A stretch of 64,000 nt of DNA from Ceratodon purpureus (taxonomy: Eukaryota > Streptophyta > Bryopsida > Pseudoditrichales > Ditrichaceae), in NCBI GenBank assembly GCA_014871385.1, contig CM026426.1, forward strand, positions 30,121,452-30,185,451, given 5' to 3'. Position numbers and translations under genes: made by a program. The notes beneath the pieces were generated by a model. It was not told the DNA's origin. It ran no database searches and worked only from the letters and a program-made list of their open reading frames with translations. This document shows positions 13,446-62,820 of the stretch, piece by piece (within the stretch, counting starts at the first letter, position 1; each line of letters opens with the position of its first letter).

Positions 13446-13585
13446 TCAGGAAATTCCACTTTGTAATTTAGAGATAGCTTTTTTTATTTTTTCGATATTC
13501 ACATCAGCAACTCTGGTATTGTCTTGAGGAACTTTAATGTCAATGGGAACCTTTTCGGCTTTTGAGGTTCTATGCACTTCTGTTT
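13446..13585 (-). CDS. Terminal coding exon crossing the left duplication edge
   Basis: On the minus strand an acceptor (CACTTGCAG) is followed by an open frame from 13585 to a TGA at 13448-13446. It includes SKAEKVPIDIKVPQDNTRVA and ends KAISKLQSGIS. Composition is typical of a real exon, with many Lys, Asp and Val and no stops. It straddles the edge of the inverted repeat at 13564: the first 22 bases lie in the arm and the rest is unique to this side. It may be the 3' end of whatever gene lies in the arms. No family recognised. Confidence 0.45.
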
Positions 13586-23960: not shown

Positions 23961-24635
23961 ACGATTACCAACCTCTTCTGCGCCCATTGAGTGTATGAGT
24001 CATTCTGAAACTTGAATGCTAAGAACGATATTTGGATTTCTTAAGATTATGAGTTACAAAACACCATTAATTTGCAACAACGTCTTCTATTACCTCGTCT
24101 GTGCTTTTACTTAGCGTGCTTGAGATGACGATCTGATGTGTAGGAGTGTCCTGAGGATGTAGCCCGTTTGCCCTTCATCTTACCGGGTTACATATGTATA
24201 TTCTACATAAGCGTCAGATGGTCGAAATGCTGCGCTATGTAAACCGTGACGTTGCAGGGAGCAATGACGTTTGGAATACCTATGGCGGCATACATTCCAG
24301 AGAACGTGAATACATTTTGAATGCCCCTGCTTACTACAATCTCATGGTTTACATGGCGTGGATTTCGCCAAAAGAGAGTTTGTCAGTTCGTCCGTGAGTA
24401 TTTCACCTTCGCGTTTTTGTTCACTGCCTGGTCTCCATAGTGTAAAGTCTCTGCAATTGGTAGGGTTTGTCAGGTTGCTAGTTCGGTGGGAATCACTTTT
24501 GTTAGTCCATTATTTTGTGAAGTTTACATTTCATATTAGCTTTGCAGATAATTTTCAGTTAATTTGTTAACTTCTGCAAGACGTGGACGATGAGGATACA
24601 GGAATTGAGATAGTGAGGAGAGAGAGCTCTCTGCT

Positions 24636-25734
24636 ATGTCAGAACGTTGTTACGGACTGTTTTCGTGGAAATTCTTCATCACTGAGTCATTTCGGGAGCT
24701 ATTAGATATGTCAAGACCAACTTCTCCGACCTGCTATGGAATCGAATGGACTAGTCAAAACTCGGCCTACAGAGGTGGGAGTTTAAGCTTAAATTTGGCT
24801 GTATCGCTTGTCTGCTCTTGTGTACTTTGCCTCTACTCTTGCCTTATTTTTCTTAAATGTCAGTAAGCCCAGACAGTGCTCTCGGATTTAGGACAACTGT
24901 TTGACTGAGCCTTTTGTAAATTTTACGTCCACTTACAGAGGGCATTGGAATTTACTCTGCAGGGATTGACGAAGGTCATAGTGATGGGTGTGAAACCAAG
25001 ATTGCCCAGAATGAGCTACCTGAACGGTTGCGGAAGGTGAGAGGAAGTACATCACGGATTATTTCTAGCAGCTGTGATGTTTCATAGAGCGCTCCTTGGA
25101 AAAATTAAAATATATTTATTAAAGAATCATTCTGTCCTAAAACCTGAAAAGAGCATTCATATATCACTAAAATTATGTACCTTGCCAACTTATGCCATCT
25201 GGGGCAAGCCTATTTGGTCCAGAACTCTTCTGTATCATCTTTGCAAAGTCGAAATGACTTGCCATGTATATCGTAGCATGTGCTCTGGTTAAAAGCGCTA
25301 GACGTGTGAGGTCATGGCAGGTTTTTGTGTATAGTTTTGAGTTATTTTATCGGATTGAAACATATTGAGGGGGGCTCTGTCGTATATGCTAGGTCAGGAA
25401 AGAAATGTGCCACCGACGACATAGAGGACAACTTAGCACTTATTAGCGCTGACGGAGGGTCGCTTTTCTGTATGTGCCTGCGCTGGCAATGATGACGTGG
25501 GTGAATTCAAATTTTGTATTCCACTAAATTTATATGCTGTTTTGCCGTGAGGGTTGAATCGCGGCACTTAGTTTGGGACGCAGCTGGGTGTTGTGACGTT
25601 GCCAGAGCAAGTTCCGGGTGTTCACAGGCTTGCCACTCTCGGGCGTTGGAGGCGATGGCGACGAAAGCAGGAGGGGGAGGGGGTGATGATAGGTGCAGGA
25701 CTGACGGGTATTCTGCTAGAAGGAGCGCAATGGG
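24636..25734 (+). CDS. Candidate multi-exon gene in right arm, unrecognised
   Basis: Spliced coding signals occur in the arm, mirrored in the left arm. One pair joins in phase: an exon ending at 24774 (TSQNSAYR, donor GTGGGA) and an exon 24939-25036 (GIGIYSAGIDEGHSDG, ending AAG before GTGAGA). A separate candidate first exon starts at ATG 25655 in strong context (GGCGATGGCG) and ends at 25734 before GTAAGG; it encodes MATKAGGGGGDDRCR. These may belong to two genes. No family is recognised. Coding support is composition and splice phase only, so the model is weak. Confidence 0.3.
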
Positions 25735-27406
25735 GTAAGGGGAAGTTCACGATGGGCGGGGAAATTGATCGTGTTGGGCATCTTCTTGGCTCGCGTGTCG
25801 ACCGTGGGGATTGGAAGCGCACCTGTGCTGTCAGAGACTCGTTACATGCCTCGCGCCCGTGTGTCTCCGACCAACTTAAACTTCCAAGCGTGGTACGTGC
25901 TGTTCTTTATTTGTTCAATTTGTTTTTTTTGGGTCGAATTCGGTGGATTGTAATGTGGTGTTTGTCGTGGGGGATTGTTGTTGTGTACTTTTAACGGTTC
26001 GTATGGTGATTGTTTTGGTGGTTTCTGACGCTACTGATGCTGTCATGGGTTGACCTATTTTACTGGGTTTTATGTGTCACGGTCGGGGTTGAATCAGTTG
26101 AGTCGAGGCCAGTTCATGTATTTCCGAGTTGCACTGTACTGATAATTTTCCGGATTTGGGAACCAAAAAAAAAGGATGGGCAGGTGATTACATGTTAGCG
26201 CGGTTGATTTGCTATTTGAAGTCCGGGGGGTTGGATCATGGCGTCTTGTTTAACCTACATAAAGTCCAATCTCTACGACATGGTCTCTTTTATTTGCCAT
26301 CTTGATATTGGCTGTTACTAGCCATGCATACCATTTTATTTCATTAATGCCATTGAAATAGGTCTGCTTAAGATCCTGGCGTATCCCTATTTAAGACCCT
26401 GGCGTATCATTTCCCAGCTCTCTCGTATCCTAAAGTTTCCCTGCTCCTGGTTATATGTTGGCTTGGGCAGTCTATGCTGATGTGGTGGATAAGCTCATAT
26501 TCTTGTTGGTTAGGATTTCGCTCATTTGGTATTGTTGGTGATTACCATCTACCAGAAGTACTTGCCATTCTGGATGCGGGAAATCTGGGTAATTGCTGCT
26601 TGTCTTGCGCTTGTGAAAGCTACTAGTCGTCGCTTTTCTGCAGCGATAGTAACGCCAGATATTGTAAATGGCTTTTATCGACTTCAGGGGGGATTTCCAA
26701 GTTCTCCTGGGTAGGATCACCTGATAGTTCAGTTTTAATTTTATCTAAGTTTCTGGTTGCAATTTTGCATGTGTGAGCCTAAGTATTTTTTGAAATTATT
26801 GTACACTATCAGCACTGTAACTTGACGACGCTTCAGATTTTTCTAGCTTCACTGTATTGTGGGATTGCCTTGGGTTTCAGTTATGTACTGAGAAAATTTT
26901 TAGGGAGTGATTTTAGAAATGCTGGGAACCTAACTGATGATTTCACTTACAAAAATCTGTGTTAAAATGATGCTGCAGCTTATGCGACTGGGAGACTCGA
27001 TTGGACATGATTATGACATTGAGAGAAGCCCTTGCAATGGATAATGAGTTCACTCCCTTGGTATTTGGAATTTCTCTTTACATTCCGTCGGCCTTTTCGT
27101 CACGGGTATTTGTTCGACTTAGCTTGCTCTTTAGCAATGTCCTTCTCTGTGGATTGTTGTACTCAGGTGCATCATTTTATGCAAATTGACTACCTGGATG
27201 CCTAGTAGAATGTATAGCCATGTTCATTAAACACCGGTTTTGATGAAATTTTGTCACACGCAATATGTTGATTGCTTGTAGATGATGATGTCGTGCACGA
27301 TGTATACCTTTTGTCACACACGGCGGATGTTCGACTCACCTACACATCATTAAGCAGGTTACCATGGTCGAGGCCTGCTTCTTGGCCTGCTCTTCCTGCT
27401 GATATT

Positions 27407-28079
27407 TGTTAACCTAGGTCATAACATGGAGGTGCCTGAGGTGAGAGTTAGAGGGGTTAAGGGTAGAAGTTGGAGAATAGCTACAAAGGCAGACTGAAGA
27501 CTGTCCGTGGGTGTTAGTCTCGGGACACGGTCATAGGGCCATCAGGGTGTCCCTTTGAGTACCGGACCTGAGACCGTTGGGTCTTCCACGGGCGCGCGGT
27601 TCAACTCTGAGACAGCCGAGGAAGCTAGACAGGTGTAGTCCCAACCAAGACCCCGTGAACACCAAGAGAGGGAGAGAAGCAAGGGGATTCCGAGAGGGGG
27701 CTCGGTAGCCGGGACAGTGCAAGGTAAGGATCAGAGACTCGTGAGTTTAGACAAGCAATAGTAATCAGTAAGCAGGATTCATATACACGAGATAGGTGAG
27801 GGCAGAGGGTGGAGAAGGCATGGTGTAGTATTAGCTGAGTAACCCAAGACTGTCCATGAACACCAAGGTTCAGGCGCTTACATGAAGGGACAAACTGTTC
27901 TAGGGAAACCAGCTGCTCTGAGACCGGACTCGACTCTAACCGCAAAACTGAGGAGTGAGTTCTCTACCCTGGGTACCTTGTTTATACTAATCTAACTAGA
28001 CTTCTCCTTGTAACTCCTTGTTGCACTATCAGTTCCACCGTCGTAGGCTATCCTCGCTGGCCTTGCTGGGGCAGTAACA
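27407..28079 (-). mobile_element. Solo LTR with 5-bp TSD (right arm, mirror copy)
   Basis: Mirror image of the left-arm solo LTR, with the same AATAT duplication in reverse complement (27402-27406 and 28080-28084). One base differs in the part I compared (the codon reading Asp in the left copy reads Gly here). Because both arms share the same insertion and the same TSD, the LTR was in place before the duplication, or it was copied by gene conversion. Confidence 0.88.
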
Positions 28080-28215
28080 ATATTTCAGGGGTGCAAACAA
28101 AGGTAAGGACAGGTAGCCACTGTTTTCTCGTCGTCACAGTAAGGTGTGTGGTTATTGTTTAAGAATTAACAACATTCGTATTATCTCACTGAGGTGTCTA
28201 ATTTCTGACACACAG

Positions 28216-28451
28216 GCAGAACTAGTGCAGATGCTGCACACGCTGCTCCTGTCCCGTTACCTCCTTCAACACTTCCTGACGGGTTAGTATCGGGAGCACG
28301 TTCTCCAAGCCCCGCACACTTGCAGAAACAGAAGTGCATAGAACCTCTCGTGAAGTTGCTTGAAGTTCAAGCAGCAGCAAGGCATGCATTGCTGGCCAAT
28401 AATAGTGATGATCCGATACGCACGGCTGTGTCATCTGTTGAGGGATTTGAG
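28216..28451 (+). CDS. Open exon crossing the right duplication edge
   Basis: An acceptor (GACACACAG) is followed by 78 open codons and a donor GTATGT, phase-compatible at both ends. It encodes RTSADAAHAAPVPLPPSTLP, then a helical part KLLEVQAAARHALLANNSDD and SSVEGFE. The duplication edge at 28347 lies within it, so the left-arm copy is cut off after the codons for KCIEP. The rest of the gene is unknown; the gene at 29086 may or may not be its continuation. Confidence 0.45.
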
Positions 28452-31735: not shown

Positions 31736-32167
31736 TGTTAACCGGAGATCACTCTCCCCCTTTTTCTTAGTTTCCTTTAGGTCCCCTCAGTTTTTACCTT
31801 GGCAGTCTCCAGACAGTCATCCAGTCATCTAGATGAACTCTATCCAGCCGACTGGATGAACTCTGTCCTGCTGACTGGATGATAGCCGCCAGGTTCAAGG
31901 GGGTTTAAGAGGCAACTTTAGGGTTTCCTGTAATCATTCCTGACTAGAGCAGTTAGAGTTAGAGGAGTCTGAGAACCGTTAGAGGCTGCTGTACCATGGT
32001 TATGGGCTGTTTTGACTCATTAATTGCAGTTTTGACTGTTTTCTCCACTTGTATTGTATGTTTCTAGCTTGTTAGGAGTGGTTGGAGTACTTGAATGTGT
32101 TGGGTTTTGTAGGGTTTTGATGGGTTTATAGAGATTAGGGTTTGGTTGGTAAATCCTCCCTCTATCA
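31736..32167 (+). repeat. 5' LTR of element 1
   Basis: 432 bp, TGTTAACC to TCTATCA. Contains three imperfect 23-bp tandem units (from 31821, 31844 and 31867) with the core CCAGCCGACTGGATGAACTC. The first and third units are degenerate compared with the 3' LTR. Such U3 repeats are often enhancers, but that is inference here. Confidence 0.95.
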
Positions 32168-33341
32168 TTGGCGACCATGCTTTAGTTTGTACCATGTGAT
32201 CTCCTGCTTGCTGTAGGCTGTCCACACACTAGAGAGGTCTGATAGTCAGTATCCGACCTGCAGAGAGGCAGTAGTGACTGCTAGACGTTTCGTAGGAGTG
32301 CTGAAATCACTGCCCTGTGAGTCCGAGGTGCTAAGCAGTCCCTGGCAGATGCTGAGAGCCATTGCAGTATTGCAGAGGGCAGGCTGTAGTGCTAGCAAGC
32401 ACACAGCCAAGCTACAGATATCTGAATTCCACACACTGCTGTAGTAGAGAGGGAAAGGCACAGTTTTGGGTTCAGGTGTTTTCTACGAAGAAAACAGTGG
32501 TATTGACACAGTGGCAGTCCAGTACGTGTTCAGAAAGACAGTAACAGCATATTAACCTTGCTTCAGGCTGTTTGGGCGCAGGTACTGTGAGCAGTTGAAG
32601 TAGCAGCAAATTGGCTGATACCCACCTTGTGAACTGAGGGCAGTTCCACAGCGAAAAAGGGGATAGAGGGTGATTCAGGTCACATTCGAACATCCACTGA
32701 AACAAAAGGGGGTGAAAGGTAAGTAACCCACAAAAATTGTATATTCAAAATTCAAAAACACTAGGTTTGAAGATTCAAAGATATTTAAAAAAAAAAAAAA
32801 AAAAAACTGTTGAGATTTTGAAATTTGAATTGGGGTACCTGAAATTGAGACTTGGGTCGGCTGCGGACCTCGAGTTGAGGACGTGGGTCGGTTTAGGCAC
32901 TTTGTGAGAGGTGGGTTTAAAGTAATTTGGGAAAATTGTTTGATATGAAAACCTGGGCAGAAGGTTAATTTTTGACCCAGGACAATCACAGTGGTAACTA
33001 AACACTATCACCCATAGACTGTAAATTCTAGAGATTAATTCAGTGCGAAAAAGGGGATAGGAATAGGCAGACAGAGCAGTTCTGAATTACTTTATTCTTG
33101 TTCGGAACCCTGTACAACTGCTTGTTAGTATTAACCAGACCACACACCAAGTGTTGGGTCAGTGAGTGCTGAGTGGCAGATATACAGACTACCGAAGAGG
33201 CAGACCAGGAGTCATTGTTAACTGATTGAGAACAGTCGACCAGGAGCATTCACTTTGACAGGTAGTAACGGCCAAGCAGGACTGGAAGCAAGAGTGACCA
33301 GTACAGAGACAATCGCCTGATCACTACGGCCAGTGAAAGCC
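32168..33341 (+). other. Leader of element 1
   Basis: About 1.2 kb of untranslated leader. It contains an uninterrupted run of 20 A (32787-32806) and two exact copies of GCGAAAAAGGGGATAG (about 32651 and 33045), which match the polypurine tract near 43081. No ORF of substance. Confidence 0.7.
32169..32180 (+). other. Primer-binding site of element 1
   Basis: TGGCGACCATGC, two bases after the LTR. The same 12-mer follows the LTR of element 2. I cannot name the tRNA with confidence. Confidence 0.6.
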
Positions 33342-36300
33342 ATGGAGGAGGGTGATATGAACCACTTCAAAGCTGAGAGACAGGCAATGGAGCGATATCG
33401 AAGATATATGCAACATGAAGAACGGACTATTGAGCAGAAGCAAACAGAAGGGCAGAGCCGACTTAGCTCGCAGGGCAGTGCAGCCAAGCAAGTCGGTGAG
33501 CTGATTGACATGGAGGTGGAGAATGACCTCTCATCATCAGATGGGAGGACAAGAGAGAGCAGATTTGGAGAGGAAAGGCAGTCTGAAAAAGGGGATAGGC
33601 TGAGTCGCAAACCTGATCCAACCAACACTCCTTGGAAGTACCAAGACATGAAGAGAACGGCGTCATTCAGAAGAGATTTTTCTGCTGCAGTGGACGACTA
33701 CAATACTTTCTAGGAAGAAAGGCGTCAAACGCAGGAGGTCTTCGCGGAGCCAACACAGTGGCCGAGTACAGTTACCGGCAGAGTCGACTTGGAGACGGAG
33801 CCGACCCGGCTACGTAGCCGACCTGTATCACCAGGACACTTGCCAAAGACCCCTGAGACGCTACCCGCTGCATTCCAGAACCTGCGGCAGAAGATGGATG
33901 AAACTAGGAGTCGATCAGTTCAGGAGCAAGGGCCCGTTCACCCCTCAGACAATCTTCCTAACAGAAATGTTCATTTTCTGGATGAATTTCGACTACGGTC
34001 AGGATGGGAGCCGGAAGAGGAAGATTAGAGGGCACTAGAGGCCTTTGCAGCGGAGTTAATGGCAAGAAGGGAGAGAGTCAGGCAATAGCAGGCCAGCCAG
34101 ACTCAAAGCAGACAGGATCCAGGGAAATATCTCATGCAGTTAGAGGCTCTACAACAAGGTGTACCCTCAGGAGTGGCTTCATTGCAACATTGGCACACTG
34201 AACCACAGTGGACAGAGAAGAACCCAACATTGCAAGGGGATGATTTACACCGTCGTGTGGAAGAGGCTGTGCAAAGACTGGCAGCACAGCAGCTGGTTGC
34301 CCAACAGAAGGAGCAGGAACGTCTAGAGCGTGAGAGACAGGAGTTGGCCCAACTGCAGGACCTGTGGGAGGACCAACGGAGGAAACCAGACCAAGGGTGC
34401 CCTGAGGGGACTATTCCAAAACCCCCCTACATATATATAGTGGCACCCGAAGCAACCGTAGGGAGGGTGATACCTAGCCCCTTGCCTGCAGCGAATTCTT
34501 CGACTGTCCATAAGCTGCCAGGATACGTGGATCATCTCACCGGGGATGTGTACCATTCCACACAGCCGACCCAACCAGCTGGGTACTCTAGAAAAACTGT
34601 AGAACCAACTTTCGGGGGGCCATCCCTGGACCTATACCTGAAGGGGTCCCTCCAGTCATACCACTGGCTCCCGCATCAGTCGGCTACAGTTCCACCGCCT
34701 TTCCAGGAGGTCCGTCCACTGTACCAACTGCCCCTCAGGTCCCAGCATCTTATCCAGTGGCAGCAATATTTCCTCCGGTAGCACCAATAGTACGGACAAT
34801 GGACCTCAACTCAGCTCCGCCAAGGCTGCCTGTTAGTACCCAGCGGAAGCAGTTACCCTATAGGGCCTACAAGGAGGGTAGTGACCCTGATGCCCACCTC
34901 AGGTACTTTGACAAGTGTGTCTGGTTTAATGGCGAAACAGACAAGAAGGTCATCATTACTCTGTTTGGTACAACACTGGTGGATAAGGCTCAGCGCTGGT
35001 TTGATGACTGGTTAGACCACCATCTCTACTGCACTTGGGAGGAGGCTAAGGAGGCATTCAAACTGCGATATAGGGAGCAGGATTCAGACGAGCAGGTCTA
35101 TATGACATTGCGAACGTTTAAACAGGGAGAAGGAGAAAAGGTTTAAGATTATTATGAACGCTTCATGAAGCTGGTAAATTGCCTGCAAACTGATGTGGGA
35201 GAGGGATTCAAATTGACATACTTCAGAGCTGGGTTACTTGATTACCTTAAGGTTACTACCAGCGGCCCTACAGCTACTACCCTGACTGAGCTTAAGGAGT
35301 TAGCAAGACGCTGTGAGACCAATTGCACTGATGCGTCTGGTAAGAAGTTGTACTTCTAGACTAAGAAGACGGAGCCGACCAGTAGTCGTGCTAACACTGT
35401 CACTGCTCAGACAAAGGGGGTTGACACTATCCACAGAAGGTACTGTACTGTGTGCAAAAAATTTGGGCATGATGATGCATACTGCTTTGTGAACCCAGCC
35501 AACCCAAACAATAGACTCTCGAAATCGGAAGGCCGGCCGACTGTGGGAGTTCATGAGGTGTCGGCTACGCAGCCGACTACCAATACAGGGAGGCCAGTTT
35601 ACAACAGACAAGGAGGTTATCAAGCAGGCGGTTCAGGGCGAAGTGATGCCTGTTTCCTCTGTTTAGGCACTGATCACCAGATGCGCAACTGCTCACATAA
35701 ATTGGATTTTCAGCAATTCATGGCTGCTAAGAAACAAGGAACAAATACTGTGGGGGTCAACAGTGTAGAGTTACAGGAATTGGACGACCCAGAGGTGGCC
35801 ACAATTCTGACTAAGGCTGCTAGGGAGAGGGCTGGGCTCCCTCTAGAGGATAAGGAGCTCAAGGAACCTGAACCGAGGCAACCCAAAACTCAAGCAGACT
35901 GGGACAAGGTGGAGCGCCTTCGAAAGGAGTTTATAGCCTTCACAGAAGAAATCAACAAGGAAAATGAGGAGGCTAGGCGTGCTGAGGAAGAGGACCAGAG
36001 GGCAAAAACAACCGACCCTGAAGCCACAACTCAAGAGGGGCCGGTTTTGGGAGGAGATTGGGCAGGGTTCCCTGACTCAGATTGCTTGCAGACAGCACAC
36101 AAGAAAGCTGTAGAAGAAGAGGTGAAGAGTCCAGAAAATTCACAGCCAGAGGCCCTGGCAAAAACAGTCAGTAGGCAGATATTACAGACGCCCATCACGG
36201 TATCATTGGGAGAGCTGCTGGAAGTAGCCCCTAATCTGACGGAGTATGTGAGGGCTAAGGTGTTTCCAGACATCCGAGCACCTTCAAAGCCTATAACGGG

Positions 36301-37186
36301 CTCTGCCTCATCCACTGAGAGTTACAAGGACTCACTGTCGGCTACCTTGCCAACTCAGAAACGGAGCTCGGGAGGTTCACAGGTAAATCCTAGCCTCGTT
36401 GTTGGGGCAGTGGATATTGACAGGGGTCTACCGGTGATCTCTGTGCAGGTAGGCAAATTAACATTGGAGAATGTCCTGCAGGATGGAGGCTCAGGAGTAA
36501 ATCTCATCACGGAGGAAGAACGAATCAGATTGGGACTCAAGGAGCCATCACCTGCCCCCTATAGATTATGCATGGCAGACCAGGCAGTGGTGGAGCCAGT
36601 GGGCCTGATTAGGAATGTCCGGATTCACATTCACGGCATTCCGTATAACATTAGTCTCACAGTCATTCGCAATAAGGAGGTCAACGAAGCCTACAGCATG
36701 CTACTGGGCCGACCTTGGCTTATAGATGCTAAAGCAACCCATGACTGGGGGAACAAAGTAGTGACGATTCGAGGGAATGGTACAGTGAAAACCATATCCA
36801 TCAACCAGAGACAAGGACCCTTGTCCAAGTTACCAGAAGTGCTGGTATGTTACAACCTGGCTGAAGGTTTGACTGATGAGGAAGAAGATCGATTTTTACA
36901 GTCAGAAGAAGATATATTTGCAGTCGGCACCATTACCCTGCCAGAGCCTTTGCGCGTCCCACTACACGACGAAGCCGACCTGTATCAACCGGACCTTCGC
37001 AAGGCCGACTTTGACGCAACCGACTTACTAGCCGACTTGGACATCGCCGACTCAGCGAAGGCACTTTCTCCTACCCTCGATTCTGCGACGTATCCAGAGA
37101 ATTTCTTTACCTTTATAGAGGGAGAGGTGTAGGTTGATGAGACCCCAGTACGAGAGAAGCTAACGGAGATGAAGGTGGCAGCATAG
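33342..37186 (+). pseudogene. gag-protease of element 1, broken by stops
   Basis: Gag starts at ATG 33342 in strong context (GCCATGG). The frame changes once near the G-run at 34614-34619. After it come a Pro-rich linker, the gag core (YKEGSDPDAHLRYFDKCVWF, WDEAK-type helices, DYYERFMKL) and two CX2CX4HX4C zinc knuckles (CTVCKKFGHDDAYC near 35447 and CFLCLGTDHQMRNC near 35650). The aspartic protease has an intact DGGSGVNLI active site (about 36484) and the LLGRPWL flap-side motif. In-frame stops: TAG 33711, TAG 34026, TAG 34086, TAA 35144, TAG 35357, TAG 37130, TAG 37184. None is TGA. Gag would coat the RNA in the cytoplasm; protease would process the polyprotein. Confidence 0.88.
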
Positions 37187-37806
37187 AATTTAACTGAGGA
37201 GGAACAGCTGCGGAAGATTAATGTCGGCACTGAGGAAGATCCCAAGATTTTGAAGATTGGTAGCCACCTGGAGCCAACTTTAGCCAAAGCAGCGGAGGAT
37301 CTCTTACGAGAGTATACAGACGTTTTTGCCTGGACTTACAAAGATCTAAAGGGCATCCCTTCCTCAATCGCCCAGCATCGCATCGTATTGGAGAAGGATG
37401 TTCCTCCAAGCCATCAAGCTAGATACAGGATGAACCCCAACTATGCCAGCATTGTCAAACAGGACATAGACAAGCTCGTGGCAGCAGGGTTCATTGTACC
37501 AGTCGAGGAGGCGAGTTGGCTCTCACCTATTGTTGTTGTCCCTAAAAAAAATGGTCAATTACGCATTTGTATTGATTATCGAAAATTAAATGCTGCTACC
37601 AGGAAGGATCCTTACCCCCTGCTGTTTATCGAAGAGGTCTTAGATGCTGTGGCAGGTTACAAAATGTATACTTTCCTGGATGGTAGGTCGGGCTACTACG
37701 AGATTTCCATTGCCCTAGAGGACAGGCACAAGACAGCCTTCATCACGGAGTGGGGTGCTTTCGTATGGGTAGTCATGCCTTTTGGCTTGACTAATGCACC
37801 GCCGAC
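37187..37806 (+). pseudogene. Reverse transcriptase fragment of element 1
   Basis: Same frame as protease. Conserved RT blocks are present: YRMNPNYASIVKQDIDKL, SPIVVVPKKNGQLRICIDYR, KLNAATRKDPYPL, then TAFITEWGAF and [11 protein letters not shown]. The catalytic aspartate of the first block (FLDGRSGYYEI) remains. The sequence stops exactly after the NAPPT block, so the YLDD motif, the thumb and RNase H are absent. It jumps into integrase sequence, and the frame changes at the junction. Confidence 0.9.
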
Positions 37807-38845
37807 TATTGGTGGCCGACAATGCACAAGGATGTGTCTGAATACTGCAGGGCATGTGATAAGTGCCAGCGGGTCGGCGGATTAGCTAACATTGGTCTGG
37901 CTCAGTTGGTCACTAGCCTACCTGCGGAGCCTTTCATGAAGTGGGATCTAGACTTTGTAGGCCCCATAAAGCCAGCAGCAGCTCGAATCGGCAACAGGTA
38001 CATTTTGGTAGCAACCGACTATGCCACCAAATGGGTGGAAGCAAAGGCTCTACGCACCAATACTGCAGCAGTGACTGCCAAGTTCTTGTACGAACAGATC
38101 CTGACTCGTTATGGCTGTCCGCTGACTTTAATCAGTGATCAAGGAACTCATTTTATCAACGAGGCTATCGAGTACCTGGTGCAGCATTTTCTACTACAAC
38201 ATCGCACCTGTACTACCTATTCTCCCCAAGGGAACGGACAGGCCGAGTCAACCAACAAGGTGTTAGGTCGGTTGTTGACCAAATTGGTTAGTGACAACAG
38301 AACCGACTGGGATGAACATTTACCCACAGCCCTATTGTCTTACAGGACTGCTTTTAAGGTTTCTACTAGGTATACACCCTTCCAGTTAGTCTACGGACTC
38401 CATCCATTGATGCCTACAGAGTACACTGTCCCTACCCGTAGGACAAATGGCAGCATCGATTATACTCTTACCCGAGTGTTGCAGGCGCGCACAGCCAACT
38501 TGGAACAGTTAGACAGCCACAGACTTATTGCGCAGGAAGAGGCACGTAGCAGACAGTGGGACAGAGCTTTGTGGAGTCAACAACATTACAGACAGAAAGA
38601 CTTCCAAGTGGGTGATCATGTTCTTTGGTATCCCAAGGGGGAGAAGGAGCATACAGGAAAATTGAAGTGCCGCTGGTTTGGCCCATATCGGGTTCAGTAC
38701 AGGTTACCTAACAACACTGCCCTTGTTGGTAATAGAGGCCCATTTTGAGCCGGACCCCATCATCGTCAACATTAATAAGCTAAAACCATACTGTTTTTAC
38801 TCTGCGGATCAATTGGTCACTATTAGCCCTAAGCAGCTGCCATGA
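37807..38845 (+). pseudogene. Integrase of element 1, N-terminally truncated
   Basis: Begins inside the zinc domain ([21 protein letters not shown]), retaining the two Cys but not the two His. The catalytic core is intact: [17 protein letters not shown] and [11 protein letters not shown] supply D, D and E. A C-terminal [11 protein letters not shown] and WFGPYRV domain follows, no chromodomain seen. A one-base frame change near 38730 precedes the end, LKPYCFY, closing with TGA at 38843-38845. Confidence 0.9.
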
Positions 38846-38974
38846 GGACTGTCCACGGAAATACCTGAAGACCAAGCTGATGGGACACCCGAGCAAGGAG
38901 TGCATTTAAGAGCCGAGCCGAGCTTTGGTAGCTCCCTTCCTCATTCTCTCATCCCGAGTTCGTCTACTTCAACC

Positions 38975-41900
38975 ATGGCGGACCCAACTCACTTCACGAC
39001 GGACCCTTAAGATTTTAGTCAGCAACTTCCCCCCATCAACACTCAGTCTTCACCCACTGCTTCAGCCACTTTGGCAAATTCAATTTTTCATGTGGCGTGT
39101 TGCTTTATTGACTCTACGCCCCTAACGGACCCCTACTCCCGGCCAGCACCTCCTGCGAGACCTGCCCCCCACTCCAATCTCATCGTTCCCTAGAGAGCCC
39201 TAGCAGTCTGCCATTTAGCACTCGGGCTGAAGCTATCTCGTTCGTTTTAGGGTTAGGGTCAGGCCAAAATCCAACCCCCATACCCCAGAAACCCCTCTCT
39301 TTCACTCTGGACGCAGCTCCAACCGAGCCCCTTCTCCGTCCTCGCAGACATACGCTGAGTATAGAGGACGCCTTGCGAACTGCCGCCCTCGTCCGACCCA
39401 GGGATACAGTCATTGAACGTGTTTTTAGCCTCCAGCCCGAGACAGCTCACTCTAGGGACGACTTAGGGTTTCACAGGCCGCGCTCCCCTTCACCGACTCC
39501 GCACCCATCGCCCTGCTCACGCTGTTCCTCAGCACACATTTCTTCCCGCGATCCTCTCCAACCGATCTCCAGCCGGCCCGTTTGTGGTCACCCAGCTAGC
39601 GAGGAGCGCATTATCGGTGGCATTCCTTTGCGGATTCACTGTTACTCAGCATCAGGCGGAGCATCCTCGCACTCACCACCCTGCACATTGGAGGCGATTT
39701 CTTGGGCTGATCCGGGAGTCACAGCAGCATACGCTCGGCGGGGTTTTTCCCACATTGACGCGCCTTCCAGTCACCTCCCTCCAACCAGCGGTTCAGGTCA
39801 GCGATCCTTCGATCGCACTCACCTTATTCACCCTCCTTGCTGTCTTGAAGTTCAGTCTCGACAGTCACTCTTGTCCCCAATTCCTGCTGCTGTTTTTCCC
39901 GTTTCGCGTCAGGCACCTCAGCCAGCTTGTCGGGTTAAGGTTGAGCCCATTGATTCTCTGCTTATGGACCTTCCTTCATCCCAGCTCAATCTCCCCCCAG
40001 TCTTTTCTTCACCCTCTTTCTGTCACTATCTTCGCAACCCTAGTTCCATACAATCAGGTCTTTCCGCAACAGTTGTAGAGCCACAGTTAGGTTGGGTTTT
40101 CTCAGGCCAATTCTGTCCCACCAACTTTCAAGCTCACGGAGACGATCCACTGCAGCTTTCTAGTACTAGCAGCGACTCCGACTGTGGCGAATTTCCTGTC
40201 CACTGTTCCCAGGTCTTCAGCTCTTCACCTTTTTTCGAGTGCAGGCAAGGCCCAGAGCATCACAGCCGACCTGCTAAGCGCGGTCATCAACGTCGTAGAG
40301 GACAGATCGGCACCTTGGAGCGCTACTTTTCGAGGGGAGTATTGCAGACCCTCAACGGGCAGGAATCCATGGACGAGGCGGGCCCTAGCAGTCAGCTGCC
40401 CACACCGCCCGTCGAGGCGGTCAACCGAGCCCCACAGCTGGATCATGCTGATGCTCCTCCAGTTCTTTCAGCGACTGTACTTCCTCCACCCTGCGAGTCA
40501 CTGCCGACCCTTCCTACTCAGAGGAGGGGTATCAAGCGCAAACACACCCCTGTGGATGGTCGGCTTCCCAAACAGGTTTGTGTACCCCGCAATACCCACC
40601 GTCGCTCGGAGGTTGTTTTCGAACCTTACACACACTGGGACTTTTGGACAAAGATGCGGGACGATGATTGGGCTGGGCTGACCAGCCTAGACGTATTCTA
40701 TCACTTTCGTTGGCCTGAGCCCTACCACGAGCTTATCTTGGATTTCTTCGAGGGGTTCGAGTACTCTCCACCAACTAAGGGTTCCCGCCGCTCCTCAGCC
40801 GACAGCACGGATACAATCCGCTCCATGGTTCGGGGGAAACCAGTGGAGATCACGGCTTTTGTCATCCGGGAGGCTCTTGGTTTCGACTCAGGTGCCGACT
40901 TAGTGGACCAGCGCAGGACTGATGGCTTCCATCCCAAATTCGCAAAGTATGGGCTGACTGAAGATAAACACATTCACAATGGTAATCGTACCTCTGCCCT
41001 TACTCCTGCGTATCAGACCCGCGCACAGGCCTTAGGAGATGCTATTGGTTTCAAGCAGCGGTTGCTGTTTGTCAGCAACAACCTATTGGAGCATATTTTC
41101 GCTGCTAAGGAGGCTGGTGAGCGCAACGAGAGGTTTGATTGGTCACACTATGTACTCGCCAACCTCCGTCGTCACCTTATTTACATCCATTCGGAAGCTC
41201 CAGGAAAGCGCCGACTTCGAGGTGCCCCCGTCATGGATGCAGTGTTGTCATACTGGTTTCCTGACCGTGAAGAGGTTGTCGGCCCGACCCATATATCTTC
41301 TAGCGTCGGCACCATGGATGGCAGCCACGAGGGCTCACCTGCCACTGATCCACCCCTTCAGTCTTTGGCTGGCTCAAAGCTTCGAGACCGAGCTAGCGGA
41401 GATAGGTTTCCTGGTCCAGTGAGTGCATTTGTCCCAACCACCGAGACACAGCCGACCACGAACTCTCAAGAAGGATCGTCTGATGTCAGCCGACGTCGCC
41501 TCTGGCTAGTGAAGAATGGCAAGAGGGTGCGCCAACCAGACTTTACCGGGGAAGCAACCCCAGCCAGTCGTCTACCCCCTACAACAACTATTCCCCCAGT
41601 GACAGCCTCGCCCAGTTGCCGGTATCCCCTACGGTCCCGCCCACAACTTCAGGGTCAGCCGACTCAACCCTCAGACCCGGAATTCCCCGGTACAAGACCC
41701 ACTGTACCCATTCATCGTCTTTGCAGTCTGTCTGGCAAATCTTCTGCCACAGTGTCTGGACAGGACCATATTTTGCCCCCTGATGACGAGCTGACTGAGG
41801 GTCCATTCCCCCCTAGTCAACCCTGCATCACCGTGCCTGAACCTGCACTCGACCTCCTTGGTGATCCAACCTTCGTGCCGACTCAGGCTACTTCATCACC

Positions 41901-42900
41901 ACCTCGCCAGAGCACCTCCCCCAGAGCGGATTCTCCCTTAGCAGCCGAAGTTTGTCCACTCTCCTCAGGTTGGGCCATTCTCCCCTGGCAGGAGCCACTT
42001 CCCATTTTTCGCGGGATACTCGCGTCCACAACCATTCGCCCTGAAAACACGGCTACTGCAGCCGTCTTGGCTCCACCATTAGCTGCCGCAGCCGATCCCC
42101 CAACCACCACAGCTGCCCATACCGCTTCAGGGCGGTAGCACCACACAGGCCGAGCGACCACCACACCTGTCAGCAACCCCCAGGGCGCCAGCAACGCTGC
42201 CACACCAGTCATCCACCGAACCACGCGACTTCACCCCAACGGTTCTTCAGGAGGACCACCAGACGATTCCAACGGAACATCTTCCCAGGGTTTCCTTGAC
42301 CCGTCATCTGACTTTGGCATGTTGATGAATAACCTTCAGGCTTTAGCCACTGTCCTTGTAAGGACCAAGGCTGCAGCCAGACAGCTGGAGGCCAATCGCC
42401 AGCAAACAGCCTCATCCGCCGAGGCCCTCAACACCACGGTCGGGGACTTAAGCGCTCAGGTTGCCTTACTAGCAACCACATTACAGTCTACCGCCATCGC
42501 ACGGGATCAGCTTGTCAAGGACAAGGCGGAACTTCAGTTGGCTGCCACCACCCTGCAGGACCAGTTGGCAGTCGCCACCGCTCCAATGAGCCGACCCGAC
42601 CCATCCCTCCGCCGTCTGGAGTTGGAGCAGACCCTCAGCAACCGCTTGCAACAAGCCGACCGGTTGCTCTTGGAGAATCAGCGCCTATCTCTAGAGCTCG
42701 CCACCCGGACATCTCCCCCTCGAGACCTTAGTTGCGCCGTGCGAGACTATGTTACAACCAAGACCCGAGACCTTGAAGCCGCCCTCATCAGTCATCATGC
42801 CGACTTCCAGCGCCAACAGCGATGGTTAATGCGGTTCGAGGAACGAGACCCCGACTTCCAGCCTTGGTTGATGGACGATGATGCTCCGCCAACGACATAG
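38975..42900 (+). pseudogene. Accessory ORF of element 1 (Transposase_32-like, coiled coil)
   Basis: Starts at ATG 38975 (ACCATGGCG, MADPTHFTTDP), meets TAA at 39008, then changes frame between about 39110 and 39190. It stays open from 39112 to TAG 42136 and continues in the same frame to TAG at 42898. The first 450 codons are Pro/Ser-rich and probably disordered. Around 40620-41270 lies a globular region: FYHFRWPEPYHELILDFFEG, then MVRGKPVEITAFVIREALGF. This resembles the putative plant transposon protein domain found next to angiosperm gypsy elements. The end is a coiled coil (ALNTTVGDLSAQVALLATTL). The role of such proteins is unknown. Position after integrase suggests subgenomic or readthrough expression. 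Confidence 0.75.
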
Positions 42901-43080
42901 CCGACTTGCCCACAGCTTCTGTGTGGTTTGTAGAATAGTGTTCACCGGATTTAGGCTGTAGAGTAGTCCGTTAGCGCAAACAGTTTTGTTTAGAGCTATT
43001 TTCACCTGTTGCATTTTTTAGGGCCCAGTTTGCATTCCTTCTTTTTTCTGCTACCCGCACGTTTTGAGGACAGAACTACC

Positions 43081-43095
43081 GGAAAAAGGGGATCA
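43081..43095 (+). other. Polypurine tract of element 1
   Basis: GGAAAAAGGGGATCA immediately before the TGTTAACC of the 3' LTR; it would prime plus-strand synthesis. The core GAAAAAGGGGAT recurs upstream in the leader and in gag. Confidence 0.75.
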
Positions 43096-43527
43096 TGTTA
43101 ACCGGAGATCACTCTCCCCCTTTTTCTTAGTTTCCTTTAGGTCCCCTCAATTTTTACATTGGCAGTCCCCAGACAGTCATCCAGCCAACTGGATGAACTC
43201 TGTCCAGCCAACTGGATGAACTCTGTCCAGCCGACTGGATGATAGCCGCCAGGTTCAAGGGGGTTTAAGAGGCAACTTTAGGGTTTCCTGTAATCATTCC
43301 AGACTAGAGCAGTCAGAGTTAGAGGAGTCTGAGAACCGTTAGAGGCTGCTGTACCATGGTTATGGGCTGTTTTGACTCATTAATTGCAGTTTTGACTCTT
43401 TTCTCCACTTGTATTGTATGTTTCTAGCTTGTTAGGAGTGGTTGGAGTACTTGAATGTGTTGGGTTTTGTAGGGTTTTGATGGATTTATAGAGATTAGGG
43501 TTTGGTTGGTAAATCCTCCTTCTATCA
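43096..43527 (+). repeat. 3' LTR of element 1
   Basis: 432 bp, the same length as the 5' LTR, with about 15 substitutions. The three U3 tandem units are better preserved here (43181, 43204 and 43227). CAGGG follows at 43528-43532. Confidence 0.95.
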
Positions 43528-50352: not shown

Positions 50353-52574
50353 ATGGCGCACGTTCAGTGTAGAGTTCTTAGTCCCGGCACTCCGGTGAGA
50401 GAGTCGGATATGGAAGAGTTGATTGACGATCTCACCCAGATGAGGTGCCAGGGTTTGCTATCACAACCGTGGTTGTTGAAGAATGAGGCGATGGTGAGGG
50501 AGATCCTGGACGGACCGGATAATAGGTGGGACAATACAATCCGGGGCAAGCCCACGCTGTGGAGTGCGGAACGGTGGGCGGAAACTTACGACTTCGAGCA
50601 GAACAGACTCCTTTGGGCAACCCGGACGGATAAGTACGTACAGGATAGGTTTCACGGGAAGATCCATAAGAATAACGGATACGAGATAGACCCCTGCAAG
50701 GATAGGAGACATGACAGGTCTTAGCCTTCCTCGTTCCGATCCTGTATCCGCTGAAACCGGAACAGGTCACCATTACGGTCGGGAACACCATCTTCGGAGC
50801 GTACACGGGGGAACGTCCGGTGAATTGGGCCGCGCTCATAGCGGAAACCGTGCAGAAGATGGTGCCATCGATCGGAAAGAAGCCGACCCCGATCAGCCCT
50901 TTTCTCTACCACCTTTACCACTCGTATAGTTTGCTGAGGGAGAGGGAGGAGGAGGATTATACGACGGCGAAGAACTTCCTCACCTTTGCTGAGGTTCCAC
51001 CAGGGATGGATGTCGAACCGCACGGCGAAACCTCGCATACAGCGTCCACGGAACGGGATGATGATACAGCGATCATTCCGAATCCCGGCGCTACGAAGGC
51101 TCAGTCCAAGTCACGATCGGAACGCGCTGCATCGCAGCACCCGGAGCCCTCCACGGCCCGGGGAGATACGGAACGGAAGGAGGTCATTTCCGAGCGGGGA
51201 TTTCCGGTTGAACTATTCCGGGGGATTCCGGAGGAAATTCATCAGGCGCAGGCCTCTTACGATCGGATCGAGACACTGTTCAGGAGGGTCTGTACGTCTC
51301 TCGGGGGCTGTTTACCGGAGGAGGTGATCCGAGAGGTAGAGCTTTTGAAGGACGCCCCGAAACTTCGGAGTGAGAAAAAGCAGTTGGAGCTTCAGTTGCA
51401 GGAGCTTACGATGGAACTGGCGACGAAGAGCGAGGAGATCCGGAAGTTCCATGCCGAGCAAGAGGAGACCTTGGGGGAGCTTTGGAAGTTGGTGGGGAAT
51501 TCGGGTGCTGTAGTCAACAAGGCCCGGTTGTTCGACGAGAATGTATTGCAGCCTGCAGATTTGGAGAACAAGCAGAAGATCATCACGATTCTCTCCAAAT
51601 GCGAGCACTCGATGAACCAGATTCTGAAGAAGGTTTGGCAGTTGCTCAATCCGGGAGTCGGAAGTCCTAGCGTCGGAACCGTTTGTCGGAACCACCCGTT
51701 TCATGGATCTCCCTCCCGGACCGTTGTAGGGCAATCTCGTGGGGTAGGATTCCGGACCCCAATAGAGCGCAACCTCCAGCTTGAGGAGCAGATGGCGGTT
51801 GACGCGGATATCTTCAAGCCGGCTCGGACGATCGCAGATATGATCCGGGAACACCAAGGACAGGTGGCGTCACCCGGAGCCAGCACGGTTCAGCAAGGCT
51901 GCGCGATCCCCACCGGTCAGGCGGAGGTGACAGGGACTACAGTCACCGTTAGGCGATCCGAAGAGCGGACGATTACGGAAGAGGTGACCCGGCCCGTGCA
52001 GCCGGCTGTTCTCCCAACACTCGGATCGTCGGTGATCATGCCGGCTTATCAAGGGGAGGTAGCAGGAGCGGAATGGGGACGAGCGATTTCACCAACCGGA
52101 CGGACCCGAGTGATTCAGGAGGGGGCACTTACCCCTTCACCCACAGCCAAGACCGGAACGGTGACTCCTACCCCCACCGGAACGCCAGTGGTGGACTCCC
52201 CTGCTGACAGTTCCGGTGCTCGGAGAGTTTTGAGGAAGAGGAAGGATCCGACAGAGAAGGGCCCCATTACGATTTCCGGGTCCGACTCGGAAACCTATGC
52301 GAACTCTCCGGTTGGGACAGCCGGAACTGGGACTCGGACCCCTACGACCGAAACCCCTCCCACGCATATGTTGCCTAAGTCTCCCAACTCTCCCAAGAAC
52401 CGAATCGTTACCCGGCTGTCCTTGGAGGCCCAGACGAAGGAGTCAAAAGCGGAACGGAGTGCTAGGCATCAGGCGGAGCGGGCAGCGAGGGCAGGAGGAT
52501 CCGAGCCACGGATGACCAGGTCGAAGGAGAAGGACCGCGAGCAGGAGAGCCACAAGAAGACGAAGATGGGGTAG
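50353..52574 (+). pseudogene. VNWA-motif accessory-type ORF, one-base frameshift
   Basis: Starts at ATG 50353 (GAAATGGCG, MAHVQCRVLS) and ends in TAG at 52574, about 740 codons. The frame breaks once near 50717, where the reading passes from KDRRHDR to LAFLVPILYPLKPEQVTITV. One missing base would restore it. The N-terminal part is globular, then ERPVNWAALIAETVQKM and SPFLYHLYHSYSLL. Next comes an acidic linker, a coiled coil (KKQLELQLQELTMELATKSE) and a long Pro/Thr/Gly-rich, then basic, tail. The architecture matches the genes at 29086 and 60910. No flanking LTRs were found, so it is either a solitary relative or an element remnant. Function unknown. Confidence 0.6.
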
Positions 52575-54674: not shown

Positions 54675-55329
54675 TGTTACCAGGCAACATCCACGGCAAT
54701 CAAGGGAACAAGGAGCGGCACCGAACTACTAGAACAGTCACAGTTACCGCTAGGAGAGTAGCAGTTAGACCAGGAAAGAAGGAAGAGACCACAAGTATAA
54801 ACAGGGTAGCTAGGGCCAGGGCTTACACTTCTTGATATTTTGTTAGTTGAAGTCGTCTCGCAACCTAGACAGCCAGGGTACTTTGCTCTTCTTTCACTGT
54901 TGATGCTATGTAAACGCTCTCGCACTCCCTTGGTAATGCACAGCCTCCTTTCAGCTTACTTCTTGCTTGCCTTACAATCTCTGTTTCCGTCTCTGCTATT
55001 GCTGCAACCCTAACGCTATACCTTCCCTCCCGTTTCCTCTTATCTGCTTGCATGAAGTGAATCGTTACTCTCACACACAACCTCACCCTCTCCCTCGGTT
55101 CCCACGAGTTCCTTGGACACGGATTCATTCACGGAACAGTAGACTAGTAGACTGACTATTGTCGTGCTCCCTGACTACTTACTATTTAGTAACGGTCCGA
55201 GTCCCACCCCTGGGACAGCTGTCCCCGGTGACCGTGACCACCGTGATCTAAGACCGTGGCTACCATAAGACCCCCCTTACAACCGTGCTCTTCCCCGCCC
55301 AGTATCTCCATGTCTGACCCCAGCTAACA
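54675..55329 (+). repeat. 5' LTR of element 2
   Basis: 655 bp, TGTTACCAGG to AGCTAACA. AGTATAAACAGGG is a possible TATA region (about 54794). Compared with the 3' LTR it has G instead of A in CTAGGAGAGTAG and C instead of T in TGACCCCAGC. Confidence 0.95.
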
Positions 55330-55332
55330 TTT

Positions 55333-55344
55333 TGGCGACCATGC
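55333..55344 (+). other. Primer-binding site of element 2
   Basis: TGGCGACCATGC, three bases after the LTR, identical to the one in element 1 although the LTRs are unrelated. Confidence 0.6.
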
Positions 55345-55389
55345 TGGGGATGGAATACTGAGGTGCCCTGAAACCCCTAAACTAATACC

Positions 55390-57258
55390 ATGCCTCCACG
55401 AAAACTCCCCTTGGTAGTGACAAATGAAGCAGAGGAAGCTGCCAACCAAGATGACTAGGAAACCACCAAGGAATTTTTGGTATGGATGAGACAGCAAATG
55501 ACCGACCTAGTGGCCAAGAATGAGGCTACTAATGCGAGACTGGAAACGCTTAGTGCCCAGTATCAAACTCTACAAGAAAACAGAAACCAGGAGACCATCA
55601 ACACCACACCACAAGCTTCCCAAGCTCTCCCTGAGGCACTCAGATCAGCTACTATCCCTCAGGAAAATCACACTGTTGCCACGCCACCTAGTCAGAATGA
55701 TACACACAAACATTCCAAGCTCCCCAAGATATCCTACCCAGTGTTTGCTGAATCTGGCGATCCAGATTGGCATGTCAGAAGATTCAAGGTTATCGCTCGC
55801 ACAAACGGCGTCACCAATACTGCCGATTTACAAAATATCTTTGGTACAACTCTCCAAGGCAACCACATCAATTGGTACATTGACTTTGAGACTGAACATT
55901 CCAATGCCACTTGGGACGAAATGGAGCAAAGTTTTCTACACAAATTCAGAAAACTCAAGACCAGCTCGGAAGTATTGAGAGCCCTGGGAAGTATTGCACA
56001 AGAGAAAAGCGAACCAGTGGACAAATTTTATGACAGATTCAAACAATTGGCAGACAAATTAAACCAACGCCCCGAGGAGGATTATTTGTGTGAGTGGTTC
56101 AAAAAAGGATTATTACCCTGGATACAACAAGGAATAGTAATCCGTGGAGTCAAGACCTTGCAGGATATCGTTACTGCTGCTAATGACATTAGTAGGGAAC
56201 TAGGGGCCTTAAACAAAATCCAAGCTCCTTTGCTGCCTTTACCCAATGTTCGCCTAGAGATCCGACCCGCCTTGGTACCATGCACTAATTGTGGGAAAAT
56301 TCATGGTGGCCGATGCTGGTACGCCAACAATCCAATTCGTACTGAAGATAATCGGCGCTCTCGTCCTACCACGGCAGCCGTGTATCCCGAGGAAGTTAAC
56401 GTCGACGCTTTTCAACCGGGCAGGAACGATGCCTGCTGGGAGTGTGGATCCACAACCCACATACGCAGAGACTGCCCTCAACTGCATCAGAGATGGGCAC
56501 AGTATCAATCCGGGAACCAAGGTGACCAAGATAACTCCAAAACTCCAGGGAATCCCAGGCGAGGAGGTGTCACACTGACAGAAGTACATGGAACGGAAAC
56601 CTCTGTGTCTACCATAAGCACTGCAGTAGTAACCACGCGATCTAAGGGAACAACGGATGACCATGTAGTAGAACCAAGGAAACCATTCCCAGAAAATCAC
56701 TGGGATCGCCTCCATAGAATCCGTCAAGACTTACAAGCAGGATTGGAAAGCACCAGCCAGGATGCTCCTATCAAACAAATTTTAGAAGATACTAACGTAA
56801 CCATCACCCTTTCGAAATTATTACAGTTGAGTCCAGAACTTCAAAAATACTTACAACAAGCCTCGCTACCTACGGGAACAGAAGGTCCTGAAGTCATTGA
56901 AGTCAACGCCACAACATTAGACCCTGATGCCGCGGTCATTCACTTACAACTTGGAAACCATGAATTAACTAACGTCTTAGTCGATGGAGGATCAGGTGTT
57001 AATGTCATGAGCAACCATCTTAGAAAACATTTAGGCTTACCTTCTCCCAAGCTCGCACAGTTTATACTCAGAATGGCAAATGATGCCCCGGTTACACCCC
57101 TGGGAATACTCTCCACGGTTGCTATTACCACCCATGGTATTTCTACACCCGCTACGTTTGTGGTCATTGATATGCCTGTTAGTAGTAACTTCCCGATAAT
57201 CCTTGGCCGACCTTGGTTACGGGACATGAATGCGATCCATGATTGGTCACGAAATTAG
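55390..57258 (+). pseudogene. gag-protease of element 2
   Basis: ATG 55390 (MPPRKLPLVV) followed by TAG at 55456 and an open frame to TAG at 57256. Gag core: SYPVFAESGDPDWHVRRFKV, FLHKFRKLKTSSEV, EPVDKFYDRFKQL. Two knuckles follow: a variant CTNCGKIHGGRC and a standard CWECGSTTHIRRDC. Protease active site VDGGSGVNVM (about 56974) and the LGRPWLRDM motif are intact. Packaging and maturation roles are as known for gypsy elements. If the early TAG is not read through, translation could start at a downstream Met. Confidence 0.85.
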
Positions 57259-62808: not shown

Positions 62809-62820
62809 AGGAGGGCTAAA
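62807..62820 (+). other. Polypurine tract of element 2
   Basis: GAAGGAGGGCTAAA directly before the 3' LTR. It would prime plus-strand synthesis and overlaps the last possible stop codon. Confidence 0.7.

Follow-up and report, generated by a model that had tools for sequence, protein, structure and literature searches.

Why should a retrotransposon carry the same six-letter word dozens of times along its body, genes included? The question is raised by a 64,000-nucleotide stretch of the genome of the moss Ceratodon purpureus (G000:C6:30121452-30185451, hereafter the window), in which a Ty3/gypsy long terminal repeat (LTR) retrotransposon that we call Element 1 is saturated with the hexamer GCCGAC. 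A related but distinct Ty3/gypsy element further downstream, Element 2, is enriched in a different hexamer, CCAAGG. From the sequence patterns and by analogy with the VANC proteins of Arabidopsis VANDAL transposons, we consider it possible, with a probability of roughly 0.45, that GCCGAC acts as a family-specific self-recognition tag in double-stranded DNA, for which a protein encoded 3′ of the integrase would be the likeliest reader and VANC-like anti-silencing the likeliest outcome.

Enrichment of GCCGAC and CCAAGG

Within positions 31736-43527, GCCGAC occurs 39 times, 29 times on the forward and 10 times on the reverse strand, corresponding to 3.3 copies per kb compared with 0.27 per kb elsewhere in the window (14 copies in 52.2 kb). 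A preliminary description of the locus had arrived by hand at about 37 copies, with the 10 reverse sites right and the forward sites undercounted at 27. Its expectation of about 6 copies was too high, as dinucleotide and trinucleotide Markov models predict 3.6 and 4.5, respectively, and the excess that it reported holds. GCCGAC is the top hexamer of Element 1 by count and by z score (18.7 and 16.3 under the two models), which rules out chance or base composition as the source of the excess; it lies outside the top 12 once the Markov model is raised to 5-mers and thereby takes in those of GCCGAC itself. The sites are spread across the LTR, gag, pol and the accessory region that follows the integrase, in coding as well as non-coding DNA. 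Regular spacing was ruled out (coefficient of variation of the gaps 1.0-1.4), and an origin of the sites from a single recent duplication was rejected because their contexts differ.

The encoded proteins do not account for the count either. Thirty-three of the 39 sites fall in the open reading frame (ORF) pieces of Element 1 that we tested, and synonymous-codon shuffling of these pieces yielded a mean of 7.5 and a maximum of 16 copies, with none of 500 shuffles reaching 33. The view of the preliminary description that amino-acid bias is insufficient was thus borne out, and the codon-aware shuffle that it had proposed as a check does not reproduce the count. When the long ORFs of two family copies (L013 and L033) and of a relative (L049) were pooled, GCCGAC was found 66 times against 14.9 expected (z 13.5), while all 18 one-letter neighbours stayed near expectation (z -1.7 to 2.1). 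Neither ACCGAC (8 vs 11.1 expected) nor the GCC box GCCGCC (16 vs 18.0) was enriched in these three ORFs. The observed z of 8.1 for L033 exceeded the largest value of any hexamer in 200 shuffled sets (5.8), and in five control ORF sets from the window the top hexamer reached a z of at most 4.5. Because the one-letter neighbours are flat and the calibrated shuffles are exceeded, the signal is that of an exact word and not a composition effect. Forward sites occupy all three codon phases in the open frames of L033 and L013, as had been noted for the window copy, with GCC GAC (Ala-Asp) the commonest. In these two copies, an A precedes the word at 31 of 51 sites and a T or C follows it at 42 of 51, giving AGCCGAC(T/C) as the best extended context.

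The word is in excess on both strands. Compared with the codon shuffles, L033 has 19 forward sites vs 5.3 and 6 reverse sites vs 1.1, L013 has 14 vs 2.3 and 6 vs 1.0, and both copies pooled have 33 vs 7.6 and 12 vs 2.1. Forward sites outnumber reverse sites, as the codon shuffles predict, and the enrichment of both strands over the codon expectation points to double-stranded DNA rather than RNA as the target. The orientation of a site can also flip, as seen at position 36337 in copy L026 and at one L033 position in L049.

Element 2 has its own hexamer, which the preliminary description had overlooked. In the window copy, where this enrichment was measured, CCAAGG occurs 36 times (21 forward, 15 reverse) between 54928 and 63262, a density similar to that of GCCGAC in Element 1. 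Its ORFs contain 31 copies vs 8.6 by codon shuffle, a number reached by none of 300 shuffles (forward 21 vs 4.6, reverse 10 vs 3.9), and the top z of 8.6 compares with 5.3 as the highest value that any hexamer attained in 200 shuffled sets. The neighbours CCACGG (z 3.7) and CCAAGC (z 3.3) are mildly elevated, so the word may be looser than GCCGAC. The two words are not exchanged: Element 2 contains four GCCGAC in total, as had been stated, without clear enrichment (4 vs 1.8 in the ORFs tested, reached by 48 of 500 shuffles), and Element 1 shows no excess of CCAAGG (9 vs 7.3). The two families thus have different words despite their related pol regions, the integrases being 51% identical. A candidate for a third private word, CGGAAC in the ORF at 50820-52571, was rejected, its top z of 3.9 lying within the null.

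Conservation and turnover of the sites among family copies

At least 44 places in the genome match the first 1265 bases of Element 1, LTR-only and partial matches included (40 of 899 candidates scored). Twenty copies were taken, as two halves, for alignment. Before counting, the rearranged L011 was dropped from the first half, and L031, which lacks a match to the window copy and holds an RNase H piece, was dropped from the second half together with the partial L035, L037, L045, L046 and L048. The aligned pieces, which include some flank, contain 14-24 GCCGAC in the first half of 19 other copies and 19-29 in the second half of 13 full-running copies, with 11 in the partial L047; the 12 other insertions represented by both halves in the alignments have 44-53 each. 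L009/L029 (with L002), which has 40, corresponds to the insertion of the window, duplicated with its surroundings in inverted orientation (99.8% identity through the flanks); it was retained in the alignments and is not an independent insertion. Family copies thus carry the word, many of them at the same sites, in line with what the preliminary description had expected of a genuine motif. Frequent variants at the sites of other copies are GCCAAC, GCTGAC and ACCGAC, and some sites are present in some lineages only. The interval without sites that had been described at 38.0-40.2 kb is real in the window copy (no GCCGAC from 37873 to 40265), but among the six other rows shown for the second half, five carry GCCGAC at the places of 38267 and 38494.

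We compared the retention of the word with that of its surroundings. Between L032 and L044, GCCGAC is kept at 22 of 29 and 22 of 25 sites in the two directions, compared with 29-30% for other NNCGNN words and 40% for all hexamers, making it the best conserved of 34 hexamers in this pair. Identity is 0.94-0.95 inside the word and 0.80-0.88 in the adjoining blocks, and the GCCGAC bases surpassed every flank block in seven of eight directed comparisons. Synonymous positions give a similar picture. At same-residue codons with the third base in the motif, L033 and L044 are identical in 36 of 42 cases vs 26.1 expected from the same codons elsewhere (P 0.0004), and 11 of 16 such tests yielded P < 0.05. 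When four more diverged copies were compared with L013 in the first half, their motifs proved to be retained in L013 at 24/25, 27/30, 20/20 and 22/23 synonymous codons (P 0.001-0.011). These alignments suggest that GCCGAC is kept by selection, above expectation, across the family copies.

The relative L049 illustrates how the sites turn over. In the alignment with L033, the RNase H and integrase of its family are nearly the same, while divergence is seen in the accessory region, where the accessory domain has 65% identity, and GCCGAC is again the top hexamer, with 23 copies in 5.6 kb. Of the 28 GCCGAC of L033, 21 can be aligned with L049 and 5 are common to both. RNase H and integrase account for 4 of these, out of 6 alignable sites, and the accessory region for 1 out of 15, the latter total being approximate as part of that region aligns poorly. 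The accessory region therefore seems, as far as the alignment allows, to conserve the number of sites and not their place.

Layout of the two elements and their surroundings

The domain order of Element 1 (Pfam) is that of Ty3/gypsy elements, namely gag, reverse transcriptase and integrase, followed by a long accessory region (Table 1). The window copy is defective: gag no longer has an unbroken frame, and a stretch of about 1.2 kb that includes the RNase H region is gone at about 37806. This stretch is present in other copies, where it matches the RNase H ORF of Element 2, and several copies have one frame of about 3600 amino acids. The region at 35360-37129 has no Pfam match itself. The LTR carries 0-4 tandem units with an intact GCCGAC per copy (20 aligned rows), and the element is poor in CpG (0.39-0.69 of expectation in 2-kb windows). 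No Rfam match at gathering scores was found in the whole window, and no integrase relative was found in IMG/VR, in a search that may leave out near records. The 5′ part of Element 1 also contains three alike 21-nt stretches with GAAAAAGGGGATAG at 32647, 33041 and 33579 (86-100% similar), and AAACCCTAA, which we take to be a plant telomere-like word, occurs five times in the element, both strands summed.

The accessory domain of Element 1 was recovered with 57-100% amino acid identity at 135 scored genome places. It contains the basic stretch QRRG.KRK.TPVDGR, invariant in nine of nine aligned sequences, which we take to resemble a nuclear localisation signal; the accessory region has no Pfam match at E 0.1. 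Four accessory-domain places, C6:7866960, 34889133, 76234463 and 92375306, share identical scores and 63% identity to the query, so that they may belong to a sister family copied very recently. Element 2 is probably a recent insertion because its LTRs are 99.7% identical, and a 3.2 kb query from it recovered genome copies that are 79-100% identical along most of the query. For its accessory domain, no sequence relative was found in PDB (best E 0.38).

Table 1 Features of the window. All coordinates are window positions. Conservation of sites refers to the rows shown, window copy included: 11 of 20 aligned in the first half and 7 of 15 in the second half.
Feature	Position	Strand	Evidence or remark
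Element 1, Ty3/gypsy LTR retrotransposon, window copy	31736-43527	+	LTR pair; Pfam gag, reverse transcriptase, integrase; 39 GCCGAC
5′ LTR, 432 bp	31736-32167	+	pairs with 43096-43527 at 96.5%, 15 mismatches
LTR array of 23-bp units bearing GCCGAC	31832-31882	+	unit number varies by copy
gag segment	34592-35143	+	Retrotrans_gag PF03732, E 1.2e-05
gag C-terminal part and protease region	35360-37129	+	blastp to Element 2 gag/protease ORF, E 1.6e-30
Reverse transcriptase, shortened in window copy	37187-37798	+	RVT_1, E 5.2e-12
Integrase (H2C2 remnant, rve)	37807-38748	+	Pfam
Accessory region 3′ of integrase, single open frame	39112-42138	+	ORF
Conserved accessory domain with invariant basic stretch	40480-41349	+	genome matches; alignment A1, 9 sequences
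Coiled-coil-like C-terminal part	42139-42900	+	weak coiled-coil model match, E 0.006, under cut-off
3′ LTR	43096-43527	+	same LTR pair
23-bp unit array of 3′ LTR	43180-43242	+	
Element 2, related but distinct Ty3/gypsy element	54675-63475	+	LTR pair 655 bp, 99.7%; Pfam gag, reverse transcriptase, RNase H, integrase
Element 2 accessory domain 3′ of integrase	60901-61695	+	
Element 2 coiled-coil-like part (by eye)	61804-62670	+	16 weak Pfam matches, best Not3 E 0.00087, all under cut-offs
GCCGAC in 5′ LTR array	31847-31852	+	
GCCGAC upstream of gag frames	32856-32861	-	kept 10/11
GCCGAC	33457-33462	+	kept 11/11
GCCGAC	33800-33805	+	
GCCGAC	33817-33822	+	kept 11/11
GCCGAC	34565-34570	+	
GCCGAC	34679-34684	-	
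GCCGAC	35374-35379	+	
GCCGAC	35536-35541	+	
GCCGAC	35560-35565	-	
GCCGAC	35572-35577	+	kept 11/11
GCCGAC	36337-36342	-	opposite strand in copy L026
GCCGAC	36708-36713	+	kept 11/11
GCCGAC	36923-36928	-	
GCCGAC	36974-36979	+	
GCCGAC	37004-37009	+	
GCCGAC	37031-37036	+	
GCCGAC	37046-37051	+	
GCCGAC	37223-37228	-	
GCCGAC	37801-37806	+	borders missing ~1.2 kb stretch
GCCGAC	37815-37820	+	
GCCGAC	37873-37878	-	
GCCGAC	40265-40270	+	
GCCGAC	40503-40508	+	window copy only, among 7 rows
GCCGAC	40559-40564	-	kept 7/7
GCCGAC	40798-40803	+	
GCCGAC	40894-40899	+	kept 7/7
GCCGAC	41210-41215	+	
GCCGAC	41278-41283	-	
GCCGAC	41305-41310	-	window copy only, among 7 rows
GCCGAC	41451-41456	+	
GCCGAC	41489-41494	+	
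GCCGAC	41658-41663	+	
GCCGAC	41877-41882	+	
GCCGAC	42590-42595	+	
GCCGAC	42655-42660	+	
GCCGAC	42799-42804	+	
GCCGAC	42900-42905	+	kept 7/7
GCCGAC in 3′ LTR	43230-43235	+	kept 7/7

Several features lie around or beyond the two elements. The segment 30236-44736, comprising Element 1 and its flanks, recurs inverted at G000:C6:30088864-30103364 with 99.8% identity, and the Element 2 query is also matched at 100% on the opposite strand, at C6:30057267-30060467; the two second matches perhaps belong to a single large inverted duplication within the putative sex chromosome. Another inverted repeat, 13564-17839 and 24072-28347, has arms of 4276 nt that are 100% complementary and lie 6232 nt apart. 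On the minus strand, 2953-8299 contains ORFs with Transposase_21 (tnp2), DUF4218 and DUF4216 (the last just under its cut-off), a CACTA-like DNA transposon.

Possible readers of the word and comparison with known systems

If a protein must tell the DNA of its own family apart, one would expect a word with the properties described above: specific to the family, distributed along most of the element, enriched on both strands and conserved in number rather than in position. We envisage that a sequence-specific DNA-binding protein might coat the element via its many GCCGAC sites, so that their density would mark the DNA as self. The likeliest reader would be the element's own post-integrase product, with its conserved domain and basic stretch followed by the coiled-coil-like part, which could permit oligomerisation; the likeliest outcome would be local chromatin opening or anti-silencing limited to the family's own copies, as VANC provides for VANDAL. 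Among the explanations offered in the preliminary description, a site for the accessory protein is the best-fitting, with the binding itself predicted. We regard a broader version as possible and hold it more tentatively, namely that each gypsy family in this genome writes a private hexamer along most of its length and on both strands, genes included and partly at synonymous sites, that would be read by its own post-integrase protein as a separately evolved counterpart of VANC anti-silencing.

The main rival is a host AP2/ERF-type transcription factor that recognises GCCGAC and activates the element, for instance in response to stress, which we consider unlikely. GCCGAC is identical to the core of the dehydration-responsive element/C-repeat (DRE/CRT) that is recognised by DREB/CBF and some ERF proteins (passages of PMC3602543 and PMC4482647); in wheat, it is bound by DREB and ERF proteins, and the TaERF4 proteins bind GCCGAC and not ACCGAC (passages of PMC3602543). 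Host binding stays the main rival because such GCCGAC-only ERF proteins exist, and the tandem units with intact sites in the LTR would suit it. The DRE/CRT consensus is RCCGAC, with A or G first, and the reading is weakened because ACCGAC, a DREB target, is not enriched alongside GCCGAC; nor is the GCC box. Dozens of copies run through the body of the element compared with the few in the LTR array, and the sites across pol and the accessory region have no evident use as an enhancer load. The word of Element 2 is moreover CCAAGG, which we assume not to be an AP2 site, and the stress-enhancer load suggested in the preliminary description is accordingly not supported. Another unlikely alternative, ranking next, is a step of the life cycle at the DNA level other than silencing, in which Gag, integrase or another element protein would read the motif on the complementary DNA (cDNA) or the pre-integration complex. 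The enrichment of both strands and a family-specific word spanning most of the element would fit, and the comparison of L033 with L049, in which the integrase is nearly unchanged and the word the same, fits it as well as it fits an accessory reader and does not decide between them; against it, we know of no precedent.

A signal in the genomic RNA for packaging or translation might be suggested by the preponderance of forward sites (29 to 10) and by the stronger forward enrichment of CCAAGG in Element 2. The coding sequence of the Element 1 family, however, predicts a forward excess (5.3 to 1.1 and 2.3 to 1.0), and reverse GCCGAC is as strongly enriched (12 vs 2.1). An RNA-only signal was rejected on this ground, leaving RNA as a quite improbable explanation, and the packaging or silencing mark proposed in the preliminary description has likewise become less likely. 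Passive retention, by which a bound protein or an unmethylated state shields CpG sites, making the word a remnant and not a product of selection, would agree with the CpG-poor element and its many variant sites, among them GCCAAC, GCTGAC and ACCGAC. We judge it very improbable, given the sites of L049 at non-homologous places, the lineage-restricted sites and a word in Element 2 that contains no CpG. Codon or amino-acid bias, nested repeats or chance could draw on the common Ala-Asp phase and on the 23-bp tandem units, which explain a few sites; with no codon shuffle reaching the count, three codon phases in use, unenriched neighbours and differing contexts, this is refuted for the count and its probability is close to nil.

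Several observations weigh against a self-recognition tag read by the accessory protein. Neither accessory domain has a DNA-binding Pfam match, apart from one chance-level zinc finger under its cut-off (E 0.069), and the domains of the two elements have no detectable relation, so a shared protein family is conjectural. The private-word rule spans two families only. In L034 alone, ORF GCCGAC is enriched (14 vs 4.7, 0/500), and its z of 4.7 lies within the range that shuffled sets give for their top hexamer. For window vs L027, identity within the motif is 0.88 compared with 0.84-0.90 in the flanks. The first-half motifs of L013 are not significantly kept in the four diverged copies (P 0.34-0.68), and in the second half the window motifs vs L033 give 28/30 (P 0.068). 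This dependence on direction agrees with sites having been gained in the lineage of L013 and having decayed in the diverged copies, with relative ages assumed. In the three pair sets other than L032/L044, 10 of 74, 38 of 332 and 6 of 187 hexamers, GCCGAC included, are conserved at least as well as GCCGAC; protein constraint may keep many words there. The pairwise tests share copies, and their P values are therefore not independent. Finally, VANC motifs are mostly non-coding (PMC5735166 and PMC10398659), while most sites here lie in coding frames.

If the self-recognition reading is true, recognition codes can overlie coding sequence, the long nameless post-integrase region gains a function, and a coding hexamer bias in transposons can be regulatory. 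A per-family codon-shuffle hexamer scan is applicable to any plant genome.

Tat, Athila and Ogre are Ty3/gypsy groups with extra ORFs after the integrase. Element 1 resembles them in its LTRs, in a gag-pol with reverse transcriptase before integrase and in the long region that follows, but it differs in the single frame of several of its copies, in the private dispersed hexamer and in accessory domains without a Pfam match. We recognised no precedent for an LTR retrotransposon with such a word in the titles, abstract openings and passages of the literature considered, where sequence-specific anti-silencing by a transposon is described for the VANDAL DNA transposons.

VANDALs are Mutator-like DNA transposons with a VANA transposase, unlike the two LTR retrotransposons described here, and the VANC motifs are 8-9 bp long and in one orientation, according to PMC5735166 and PMC10398659, compared with 6 bp on both strands for GCCGAC and CCAAGG. 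VANC contains DUF1985/DUF287, for which the accessory domains gave no Pfam match up to E 10, a distant similarity being possible. The Element 1 family is thus not a member of the VANC/VANDAL system, and the likeness reaches as far as the DNA pattern. Dense short motifs that differ between related families are common to both. The targets of VANC also evolve and vary by tandem repeats in non-coding DNA (PMC5735166), which the LTR units with their varying number of intact sites resemble in part, 33 of the 39 sites of the window copy lying in ORF pieces. In both, moreover, the reader would be an extra protein encoded by the transposable element with a family-specific target, as described for VANC and as proposed here for Element 1.

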